Part shown: positions 2,166-31,133 of the stretch, one piece after another
Numbering within the stretch: position 1 is the first letter of the stretch
How the letters are laid out: each line of letters begins with the position of its first letter
DNA from: Crocinitomicaceae bacterium
GTDB taxonomy: Bacteria > Bacteroidota > Bacteroidia > Flavobacteriales_D > Parvicellaceae
Reading direction: 5' to 3'
Length of the DNA: 33,805 nt
Assembly (NCBI GenBank): GCA_018663635.1
Contig: JABJPZ010000265.1
Coordinates: 1 to 33,805 of the forward strand
Program-made: the position numbers and the translations under genes
Notes under the pieces: generated by a model
The model's input: only the letters and a program-made list of their open reading frames with translations
Told to the model about the DNA's origin: nothing
Database searches by the model: none

Positions 2166-2474
2166 CTAGCAACCTTCGCCATATTCCACTTCTTTAACTT
2201 TGAAGTCTTCACCATACTTCACGACCTTAATTTTGTATTTTTCTCCGTAATCGACGACTTTCCATTTTCCAACTTTGTCTTCACCGTATTCAACGTACTT
2301 GATTTTTAAATTTTCTCCGTACTCAACAAACTTCACTTTATAGTCCTCACCGTATTCAACGAATTTTATTTTACCATAAACATGGCAGCCTTTATTTTCC
2401 GCATCACTTTTAAATGAAAAAAGGAGTATTGCACTAAAAAATAAAATAGCAATCGAGGGTAGAAGTTTTTTCAA
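2166..2474 (-). CDS. small secreted VEYGED-repeat protein, probable 7(1) septoil knot family
   Basis: This 102-residue protein has an N-terminal signal peptide (about residues 1-25), then six tandem copies of a roughly 11-residue unit of the form K-[VI]-K-x-V-[ED]-Y-G-E-[DNK]. The third and fourth units are separated by a short KVGKW insertion. One Cys lies just before the repeats (C30) and one is the last residue (C102), so a disulphide joining the ends is possible in an exported protein. From memory the repeat pattern fits the family annotated as '7(1) septoil knot domain' (formerly DUF6150, PF19647), whose members are predicted or shown to form a deeply knotted beta structure. Function is unknown. 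Codons differ between the repeats, so they are not a recent duplication. A candidate promoter (TTG-N20-TAACTTTC) lies just upstream, in the 80-base gap after icd. Confidence 0.75.
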   Translation of the reverse strand: MKKLLPSIAILFFSAILLFSFKSDAENKGCHVYGKIKFVEYGEDYKVKFVEYGENLKIKYVEYGEDKVGKWKVVDYGEKYKIKVVKYGEDFKVKEVEYGEGC

Positions 2475-4882: not shown

Positions 4883-5615
4883 CTAATAATCTAAATCAAG
4901 TTTTAATAAATCTTTTAGCTTATTTAGGGCTGGATTTTTTTCAGCTAATTTTTCGTATTTGTCACGAGTTGTGTATAGACTTTTACCAGTATGATCGCTG
5001 ATAATGATCGTTTCGATTTGAATTTCGTAGTTATTAAGCTCTTTTCGCAAGTAATTCAAAAAATGCAATTTTTCTCCTTGTAAAAGTTCTTCCTGAACCG
5101 AATTGTTGATTTTCAGCTCAATTATAAAATTTGGTTTAAGCACGGGTAAATGGCTCGTAATCGTTGCATGTAGGTTTGTTTTTCCTCCATTTTTTATTTT
5201 GTTGGCATAGCTGTTCCATTTAACCATGAGGTCATCAAAAGCAAATTTTTCTACAGGCTTATTTGTGTGCTCTTCTTTTTTTTCTTTCGCTTTTTCTGTG
5301 TCATTGTTATTTAACAAAGAAGTGATGGAGACAGAAGATCGATTTTTGCCAGATTTTTGTTTAAAAGAAGCAGAAGGGTTTACTTTTTTACTTCGATTTT
5401 CGTCAATTGTAATCCTGCGAGATATTTTTTTTGACTCATTAGGGTTTTCTTGATTGATAGCCAAAGTATTTTCTGACTCACTTTTGGATGATTCTTGTGT
5501 GGAAGCAGTTTCTTGATTGGTAGATTCGAGACTTTCGGTTGAAACTAGCTTGGATAAATCCGGAGGTAGAAGTGGAATTATTTTTGACCAGCTAAAGGTT
5601 GATCCTTTTTTTTTT
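4883..5615 (-). CDS. dnaX: DNA polymerase III tau-specific C-terminal part, in the -1 frame of dnaX
   Basis: This reading frame continues dnaX after the A10 tract. The ORF track starts it at an ATG (5638), but the eleven residues before the tract are an out-of-frame read of the gamma coding region. The true content begins GSTFSWSKIIP and runs 240 residues. First comes a Ser/Thr/Glu/Lys-rich linker, then a folded end domain from about KFAFDDLMVKW to KLKDLLKLDLDY, which resembles the C-terminal domain of Bacteroidota DnaX (conserved W, a NxxQ segment, NPAL, final LDLDY). Joined to the 5' part by one added nucleotide or a -1 shift, it gives about 596 aa, the size I expect for DnaX in this phylum. 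It almost certainly has no start of its own. Either slippage at the tract makes tau, or a base is missing from the assembly. Confidence 0.85.
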
Positions 5616-6672
5616 CGTCCACCGAAGTGATTGAGCATAACTGCATCAAAGCAAGTTCGACTAATAACCGTTTATTTTTACTTGCTTTATAACTAAGGTC
5701 AGTCTTGTTTAGTAACTCAATTCCTTTCAATAAAAATCCATTAGGTGTTAGTGTGGATTGATCGAGGTATTGTTGTTTTAAATCTTCTGCAGCATCGAGT
5801 AAAGTAATCGTTGATTGGTCTTTGCTAACTAACAAATCTCTGAAATGCGCAGCTAATCCATTGATAAAATGTCGGCCATCAAAACCTTTGTTCAGCACTT
5901 CGTTTAACGACATTAGCGCCGAAGGAATTTGGTTTTCGATACAAATATCTGTTATCTTAAAGTAGTAGTCGTAATCTAAAATGTTGAGACTTTCAAGAAC
6001 GGAAGCGTAGGTAAGGTTTTTACCGGTAAAGGAGGCCAATTGATCAAACATAGATAATGCATCGCGCAGAGCACCATCCGCTTTCTGAGCAATAAGTGCC
6101 AGCGCTTTTGGTTCAGTACTAATTTCCTCTTTCTCTGCAATCGATTGTAAATGATTGGCGATGTCACTTGCCTGAATTCTGTTAAAGTCAAAAATTTGAC
6201 ATCGAGAAAGAATGGTAGGAATGATTTTATGTTTCTCAGTTGTCGCTAGAATGAAAATGGCATGAGGAGGAGGTTCTTCTAGGGTTTTAAGGAAAGCGTT
6301 AAATGCATTAGATGAAAGCATGTGAACTTCATCTATAATGTACACTTTGTAAGTGCCGTGCTGAGGTGGAATCCTAACCTGATCCGTTAATTGACGAATA
6401 TCATCAACCGAATTATTGGAAGCCGCATCCAATTCAAAAACATTGAATGCATGCTCGTTTAATTCTTTACCATCTTCCATGTTGATGGTTTTTGCAAAAA
6501 TCCTTGCACAAGTCGTTTTCCCAACACCTCTTGGCCCACAAAATAAATAAGCATGAGCTAATTTATTGGTGTTGATTGCATTAACGAGTGTTTCAGTAAT
6601 TGCACGTTGCCCAATTACACTCTCCCAAGCAGTTGGTCTGTATTTTCGTGCTGATACTATAAATTCACTCAT
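5578..6672 (-). CDS. dnaX: DNA polymerase III gamma (frame-0 product of dnaX), clamp-loader ATPase
   Basis: This is the ATPase motor of the sliding-clamp loader. Walker A is GPRGVGKTT (46-54), Walker B is IIDEVH (112-117), and the SRC motif is at 156-158 (SRCQIFDF). The collar domain follows to about residue 350. The four-Cys zinc module found after Walker A in E. coli DnaX is absent: KTINMEDGKELNEHAF has no Cys. The frame stops at residue 364 after EKKKDQPLAGQK, at the end of the collar domain, so the product could work as gamma. The 3' continuation lies in the -1 frame and overlaps this ORF. A TATCTTTG -7 element just upstream supports the ATG at 6672. Confidence 0.93.
   Translation of the reverse strand: MSEFIVSARKYRPTAWESVIGQRAITETLVNAINTNKLAHAYLFCGPRGVGKTTCARIFAKTINMEDGKELNEHAFNVFELDAASNNSVDDIRQLTDQVRIPPQHGTYKVYIIDEVHMLSSNAFNAFLKTLEEPPPHAIFILATTEKHKIIPTILSRCQIFDFNRIQASDIANHLQSIAEKEEISTEPKALALIAQKADGALRDALSMFDQLASFTGKNLTYASVLESLNILDYDYYFKITDICIENQIPSALMSLNEVLNKGFDGRHFINGLAAHFRDLLVSKDQSTITLLDAAEDLKQQYLDQSTLTPNGFLLKGIELLNKTDLSYKASKNKRLLVELALMQLCSITSVDEKKKDQPLAGQK
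5606..5615 (-). promoter_or_regulatory. A10 slippery tract in dnaX, probable frameshift or transcriptional slippage site
   Basis: The coding strand reads GAC-G followed by ten A and GGATCAACC. Frame 0 reads E-K-K-K-D-Q and ends 25 bases later at TAA. A -1 shift, or one inserted A in the mRNA, reads E-K-K-K-G-S-T and enters the 240-residue tau tail. I see no strong downstream hairpin. The upstream GGTGG is only weakly SD-like and very close to the tract. Confidence 0.65.
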
Positions 6673-29777: not shown

Positions 29778-31133
29778 ATGAAATTCCTGAAGTACTGTTT
29801 TCTTTTACTTTTCTTTTTTTCTGGCCTCAATATTTTTAGTCAAGAGCGCGATACCACACTGAATATTATTGAAAAGGGTAAAATCAAGTACCGATTGGAA
29901 GACGGAAAAAACAAGTTGTATACGTATGATTATCGTGGTGCACTTCAGGCTTTTAGGGAGGTTTTACAAGCAGAGCCTAGCAATGTCCTGGCGAAATTTA
30001 GAATTGCACAATGTTATTACGAATTGAAGAGATTTGATTTATCAAAAAAATACATTGATCAAGTGACTGACGGGGGGCTGAAAAAAAAAATGAGGAAAGA
30101 ATTTATCTTTTTAAAGGGTAAAATTTATCATAGGAATGAACAGCTGCCTGAGGCGATTAGTTACTTAGAACAGTACAAAGGAAAAGCAAAGAAAAAGGAA
30201 GTTTTAGATTCGGAAGTGGATCGTTTTATACTACAGTGCAATTACGCGGAAGACGCTATTAAAAGAGAAAGAGCCATTGAAATAGTTAATTTCGGTGACC
30301 ACGTGAATACGGTTAACCCAGAGTATTCTCCTTCGATTACTGCCGATGGTAAAACCATGATTTTCACATCAAGAAGGCCAGATACAAAAGGGGGAGGGGT
30401 AGATTTAGATTTTGATCATAAATATTATGAAGATATCTACGTCACGACTTGGGATGATGAAGATGAAGAGTGGAGTGCATCAAAAGGTATCCCAGGTAGT
30501 TTGAATACAGAATTTCACGATGCTTGTTTGAATATTTCAGCAGACGGTAAATACATATATATTTATAGAAATATCCTAAATGTTACCCGAACGGGAGACA
30601 TTTATGTTAGTAAAAAAAGTAAGTCTGGAAAATGGGGAACGCCAAAACCGGTTGCTGATAATAACAAAGAGATTAACTCTACTTATTTTGAGTCCTCAGC
30701 ATCTTTAACAGCTGAAGGTAATGAAATGTATTTTGTTTCAGACCGTCCAGGGGGCAATGGTCTGGCAGACATATACTACATAAAGAAAACGGGTAGCACC
30801 TGGGGTGAGGCGGTTAATTTAGGTTCTGAAATTAATTCGAAATATGACGAAAAATTTGTTTATGTGCATCCGCAAGGAAATCTTTTATTCTTTTCTTCTG
30901 ACGGAGTTAATAGCATGGGAGGATATGATATTTTTTATTGTAAAAAGAATGGCGAAGGTAAATGGGGAATTCCTCAGAATATGGGCTCTCCTATAAATAC
31001 GGTTTTGGATGAGAAGACATTTACCATTACAGCGGATGGTAAAACGGGTTATATTGGCGCGTATTATGAAGGGTCAAAAGGGGAATCTGATATTTTCAAA
31101 ATCGATTGTTCTAGTCTTAAATTAATAGAATAG
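29778..31133 (+). CDS. exported TPR / PD40 beta-propeller protein
   Basis: The 451-residue product has a signal peptide (to about GLNIFSQ) and a TPR region (YDYRGALQAFREVLQAEPSNVLAKFRIAQCYYELKRFDLSKKYI and beyond). From about residue 185 it has repeated PD40/WD40-like blades such as YSPSITADGKTMIFTSRRP, DACLNISADGKYIYIY, SSASLTAEGNEMYFVSDRPGG and KTFTITADGKTGYIGAYYEG. This is the TPR-propeller layout of Bacteroidota envelope proteins such as PorE, but the C-terminal OmpA-like peptidoglycan-binding domain is missing and the ORF ends cleanly. It is probably a periplasmic scaffold. An in-frame A10 tract (30081-30090) lies in the TPR part (GGLKKKMRKE). Confidence 0.85.
   Translation: MKFLKYCFLLLFFFSGLNIFSQERDTTLNIIEKGKIKYRLEDGKNKLYTYDYRGALQAFREVLQAEPSNVLAKFRIAQCYYELKRFDLSKKYIDQVTDGGLKKKMRKEFIFLKGKIYHRNEQLPEAISYLEQYKGKAKKKEVLDSEVDRFILQCNYAEDAIKRERAIEIVNFGDHVNTVNPEYSPSITADGKTMIFTSRRPDTKGGGVDLDFDHKYYEDIYVTTWDDEDEEWSASKGIPGSLNTEFHDACLNISADGKYIYIYRNILNVTRTGDIYVSKKSKSGKWGTPKPVADNNKEINSTYFESSASLTAEGNEMYFVSDRPGGNGLADIYYIKKTGSTWGEAVNLGSEINSKYDEKFVYVHPQGNLLFFSSDGVNSMGGYDIFYCKKNGEGKWGIPQNMGSPINTVLDEKTFTITADGKTGYIGAYYEGSKGESDIFKIDCSSLKLIE

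Follow-up and report, generated by a model that had tools for sequence, protein, structure and literature searches.

The window analyzed here, a stretch of 33,805 nucleotides from a Crocinitomicaceae bacterium (contig JABJPZ010000265.1), carries a dnaX gene in which a run of ten A's divides the coding sequence between two reading frames, and this raises the question of how one gene could yield both DnaX products, gamma and tau. The existence of a separate role for gamma is a matter of long debate. On the comparative evidence presented below, the gamma and tau output of this gene is most likely set by slippage of RNA polymerase on the A10 run.

The gene lies on the minus strand (6672..5578), and direct reading of the sequence gave its junction as GTG GAC GAA AAA AAA AAG GAT CAA CCT TTA GCT GGT CAA AAA TAA. 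The A run is exactly 10 nt long and has a G on either side (5616 and 5605; Table 1). The 364-aa frame-0 product was identified as the N-terminus of DnaX by TIGR02397 (1.5e-118); it covers positions 1-371 of PRK14971, the Bacteroidota gamma/tau model, and contains the Pfam domains DNA_pol3_delta2 and DNAX_ATPase_lid. Past the tract, stops are met after 25 nt in frame 0, 11 nt in the +1 frame, and 720 nt in the -1 frame. The -1 frame, read from the tract to 4883, matches PRK14971 positions 403-614 (E 1.1e-25), the portion absent from frame 0, and therefore encodes the real C-terminus of tau. Compared with a congeneric genome (G001), the region gave a dN of 0.119 and a dS of 0.549 and is therefore under purifying selection in that frame. 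A -1 shift, or an mRNA with one additional A, would fuse the two parts into a tau of 596 aa; at the junction, gamma would end in KKKDQPLAGQK and tau would contain KKKGSTFSWSK. A first-pass annotation made from the sequence alone had already described the A10 run, the frame-0 stop 25 nt later with its 364-aa gamma form, and the 596-aa tau obtained with one extra A, and had read the gene as a split gamma/tau pair; the sequence and ORF, the translation, and the TIGR02397 and PRK14971 matches, respectively, bear out these points.

Table 1. Features of the dnaX locus in the window and the basis of each assignment
Feature	Coordinates	Strand	Basis
dnaX frame 0, gamma-like product, 364 aa (AAA+ ATPase, lid, collar)	5578..6672	-	ORF
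A10 tract (candidate slippage site) at the collar/tau junction, codons GAA AAA AAA AAG	5606..5615	-	Sequence; A9-A11 common to 237/272 relatives
TAG closing the +1 frame, 11 nt past the tract	5592..5594	-	Stop distances
TAA, gamma stop, frame 0, 25 nt past the tract	5578..5580	-	Sequence
tau-specific C-terminal region, -1 frame	4883..5617	-	PRK14971 match, dN/dS, translation

For comparison, dnaX was gathered from genomes across the phylum, and 272 distinct loci were classified. A run of A9 to A11 was found at the collar/tau junction in 237 of them (A10 in 198, A11 in 24, and A9 in 15) and in 134 of 154 genus labels, a set with overlap between GTDB codes and NCBI names. The run falls in different codon phases (0, 1, or 2), the encoded residues vary (E/Q, K/N), and the run is retained even in GC-rich genes that otherwise prefer AAG. 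Since all three codon phases occur and GC-rich genes keep the run, it is the nucleotide run and not the peptide that is conserved. The tau frame of the 237 tract-bearing loci is 0 in 122 cases, -1 in 89, and +1 in 26. An alignment of dnaX from relatives, searched for an A run followed by a frame change, had been proposed as a check in the first-pass annotation, and its outcome was positive, with the tau frame shifted in 115 of the 237 loci that carry A9 to A11.

For the count of frame changes, a tree was built with FastTree from the first 350 residues. The tract-bearing lineages required a minimum of 34 changes, 24 when branches with support below 95 were collapsed and 10 when those below 99 were collapsed, and the count depends on the FastTree topology. 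The presence of the tract changes only 8 times on the tree, or 4 times with branches below 99 collapsed. In the family to which the window belongs, genera g1, g6, and g7 have tau in the -1 frame, g2, g3, and g8 in the +1 frame, and g4 and g5 in frame 0. The frame is fixed in some genera, for example g16 of family f8, where it is -1 in 11/11 loci.

A natural single-base series was found in Lacinutrix, Olleya, and relatives, in which the tract has near-identical flanks (GATGGAG-An-TAGYAG). Within this clade, the loci with A9 (L232 and L335) have tau in the -1 frame, the more than 30 loci with A10 have it in frame 0, and L269, with A11, has it in the +1 frame; across the series (L232, L269, L335, and L278), ten A's in the mRNA would restore tau each time. 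Two of these loci, L232 and L269, both from Lacinutrix, share 98.6% of their gamma residues. Examples of the classes among cultured Flavobacteriaceae are Lacinutrix mariniflava (A9, -1 frame), Olleya namhaensis (A10, frame 0), and Flavobacterium soli (A10, -1 frame). A run of A13 in the Flavobacteriaceae locus L381 leaves tau in frame 0, i.e., ten plus three A's. Another Flavobacteriaceae dnaX, L253, ends in a run of A13 at which its contig breaks. Among the genomes listed for family f8, nearly all have the short frame-0 product, and read-through was seen in two (G848 and G755); both of these have A11, and their tract-bearing siblings mostly combine A10 with the -1 frame.

Species with tau in frame 0 have no inherent need for stops in the remaining two frames. 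Both of these frames were nevertheless found to stop within 25 nt of the tract in 109 of the 122 frame-0 tract loci (89%). Random positions in the same genes gave 22%, and 20 frame-0 relatives without the tract gave 10%. Counted by genus, closure was observed in 77/90 with the tract and 2/18 without (Fisher p about 1.5e-9, with genera not fully independent). These closed frames indicate that frame-0 species have a use for gamma; the presence of the tract in most sampled genera, together with alternative frames that are shut despite possible read-through, is comparative evidence that both products are wanted.

In the proposed mechanism, transcripts that have not slipped, or whose length is off by the wrong amount, would reach a stop within 25 nt and yield gamma, the clamp-loader ATPase. 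Transcripts with one A more (or two fewer) would continue in the -1 frame and yield tau, that is, gamma plus the C-terminal part contacting polymerase and helicase, and the ratio of the two products would likewise be set by slippage. As slippage would supply all three downstream frames, single-base insertions or deletions in or near the tract would merely swap the class of transcript that makes tau. The downstream frame would have wandered among 0, +1, and -1 in the evolution of the Bacteroidota because of this exchange, with the run held at 9 to 11 A's and both non-tau frames kept closed just past the tract throughout. We consider it probable, if less firmly than slippage in the window itself, that the poly-A run made Bacteroidota dnaX indifferent to the frame of its second half, that selection keeps the run length (9 to 11) and the closed non-tau frames, and that one subclade replaced the run by A_AAA_AAG and then by another device. 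As part of that reading, the closed alternative frames of frame-0 species imply that gamma itself would be selected across the phylum.

Several observations point to the polymerase. The direction of shift required differs among close relatives (-1, 0, or +1) at a constant A9 to A11, and differing directions among orthologues are, for Antonov et al. 2013 (PMC3711429), a criterion that marks transcriptional realignment. The RNA:DNA hybrid of RNA polymerase spans 9 to 10 bp (PMC5009743), and the floor of nine A's fits this hybrid better than a seven-base ribosomal slip site. Long A runs are also rare in the genome of the window: in its 2.88 Mb, 14 A10 runs were observed, where a second-order Markov model of a genome sample predicts about 83. 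In the genome sample (G000, L286-L305), 4 A9 runs were observed against 16 expected, and A6 and A7 runs occurred at the expected frequency, which puts the depletion of A9 and A10 runs in genome G000 at about 4- to 6-fold. Depletion from A9 upward but not of A6 and A7 is as expected if the polymerase of this genome slips on such runs, and it suggests selection against polymerase-slippery runs; Baranov et al. 2005 (PMC1088944) reasoned in this way for genomes whose polymerase slips on them. Because A10 runs are so few genome-wide and the run recurs at the same position in 237/272 relatives, the A10 of dnaX is beyond chance.

The main competitor of polymerase slippage is a programmed -1 ribosomal frameshift on the A_AAA_AAG within A10, which would make tau in a mirror image of E. 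coli dnaX. E. coli makes gamma by a -1 ribosomal frameshift at A_AAA_AAG, which is accompanied by a hairpin and a Shine-Dalgarno-like signal. The two genes are alike in producing gamma and tau from one gene at the same domain boundary and in having A-rich Lys codons at the shift site; the window differs in its longer run, in lacking such conserved stimulators, and in having gamma as the unshifted product. The heptamer, which any A10 contains, is present in GAA AAA AAA AAG, and the window's tau needs exactly -1, so that ribosomes could also use it in this one gene. One subclade (L355, L359, and L362) has its run shrunk to A_AAA_AAG and keeps the -1 frame. Orthologues do not share one direction of shift, with 0, +1, and -1 all occurring with the same tract, and a -1 shift is of no use to the 26 relatives whose tau frame is +1 or to the 122 loci with tau in frame 0. 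It also leaves the nine-A floor unexplained and would oblige the near-identical flanks of close relatives to shift opposite ways. No conserved downstream hairpin was found among the relatives (window z, -0.4), although the -1 group had a mean z of -0.72 versus -0.29, with 17% below -2. Shine-Dalgarno-like 4-mers upstream of the tract gave no strong signal, being present in 11 to 19% versus 7% at control sites (13/89 in the -1 group). Given the weak excess of both features, ribosomes may contribute in some lineages, and as the source of tau in the window the ribosomal shift is judged unlikely. The first-pass annotation had likewise favored polymerase slippage over a ribosomal shift, a preference supported by the mixed directions at constant A9 to A11, the lack of a conserved hairpin, and a Shine-Dalgarno excess that is slight.

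Three further explanations carry much lower probabilities than the ribosomal shift. Separate translation of the second ORF from an internal start, giving a free tau C-terminal protein, would draw on an ATG that the window has in the -1 frame just before the tract (ORF 5638..4883); among the 115 shifted-frame relatives, however, 85 have no ATG, GTG, or TTG between the preceding stop and 30 nt past the tract, and ATG in that interval occurs in only 13, so that this reading is very improbable for the window. As a general explanation, internal initiation was rejected, since those 85 of 115 have no start codon in the tau frame. The chance that the tract is a phase-variation switch at the DNA level, with replication slippage turning tau on and off, appears slighter still. 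Homopolymers this long do mutate often, and A9, A10, and A11 alleles occur among close species, but DnaX belongs to the core replisome, where a population would gain nothing evident from losing tau in some of its members, and the run length stays at 9 to 11 phylum-wide with frames fixed within genera such as g16. Equally implausible is a base missing from the assembly of an ordinary, continuous tau ORF, which the first-pass annotation had named as its main alternative. Errors do arise readily in homopolymers, and the draft genome comprises 288 contigs; against this, the independently assembled genomes of relatives refute the claim, with the identical tract and frame in two congeneric genomes (L002 and L019). 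Split dnaX genes are also found in single-contig genomes (e.g., L026 and L081), and a tau frame shifted in 115/237 tract-bearing loci is likewise at odds with a local error. Five further A10 runs of the same genome fall within long uninterrupted frames, one of them being the A10 at 30081-30090 (+) of the window, inside the intact ORF 29778..31133; with its coding A10 runs in intact ORFs, the assembly is therefore not generally wrong at A10. Slippage at 30081-30090 would truncate the product of that ORF, and this run offers a natural internal control for transcript measurements.

Polymerase slippage in dnaX has a precedent in Thermus thermophilus, where a nine-A run, slippage, and mRNAs of several lengths were reported (Larsen et al. 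2000, as described in PMC1088944 and PMC5009743). The window resembles Thermus in having an A run late in dnaX (at least nine; A10 here) and nearby stops in the non-tau frames that yield gamma. It differs in that Thermus tau is in frame 0 and its slippage was measured, whereas tau of the window is in the -1 frame and we infer the slippage. About half of the Bacteroidota relatives do have tau in frame 0 as in Thermus, and their closed non-tau frames reproduce the Thermus arrangement. The -1/A10 organization is itself already known: Antonov et al. 2013 (PMC3711429) describe split dnaX genes with two overlapping ORFs and tau made via recoding, comprising 17 genes from 12 genera that all need a -1 shift, nine of them with ten A's, and propose slippage by analogy with Thermus. 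The reversal of roles between gamma and tau is repeated by Atkins et al. 2016. The window's dnaX is exactly of this split type, with overlapping ORFs, a -1 change, about ten A's, and tau by recoding, and it belongs to a group-wide pattern. Antonov et al. 2013 reported the -1 direction alone; the present loci add genes that combine an identical A10 with tau in the +1 frame or frame 0, and closely related species between which the frame has switched repeatedly. A search of the open-licence literature found no report of a +1-type or frame-drifting dnaX. Within that literature, no account was met of tau in the +1 frame, of frame-0 species with an equal tract, or of a frame that switches repeatedly between close relatives. 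Poly-A runs also bridge broken frames by polymerase slippage in the insect endosymbionts Buchnera and Blochmannia (cited in PMC5009743 and PMC3971599). Slippage there rescues decaying genes of reduced genomes, whereas here a core gene in genomes of ordinary size keeps the run along with closed alternative frames.

Some lineages have lost the run. In genera g31, g49, g52, and g388 of family f8 (L110, L111, L193-L205, and L350-L362), the poly-A is gone and tau is still in the -1 frame. Loci L355, L359, and L362 keep A_AAA_AAG, and the remainder have no slip site; in most of these the gamma stop follows a Ser codon (TC[TCA] TA[AG]), and tau picks up at that point as ATC TTA AGT. Overlaps as in translational coupling were seen in L357 (ATGA) and L356 (GTGA). 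The subclade may have switched from slippage to ribosomal shifting or termination-reinitiation. The run has also been lost in Bacteroidaceae and a relative (L211, L213, L216, L222, L227, L237, L244, and L261), with tau in frame 0, and the alternative frames in these loci are mostly no longer closed nearby. Where the tract used to be, most of them have a conserved stretch resembling GGGCGTAGCCC (peptide GRSP), which is possibly a candidate hairpin stimulator.

The drift of the frame provides a natural series, A9, A10, and A11 between near-identical flanks, for direct measurement of slippage. It also carries a warning for annotation, as many dnaX calls in Flavobacteriales are likely to be gamma only, with the C-terminus of tau left as a stray ORF or taken for a frameshift error. 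Elsewhere in the window, positions 2166-2474 (-) encode a secreted-looking protein of 102 aa with near-repeats of a motif around (K)VxYGE(D/N).
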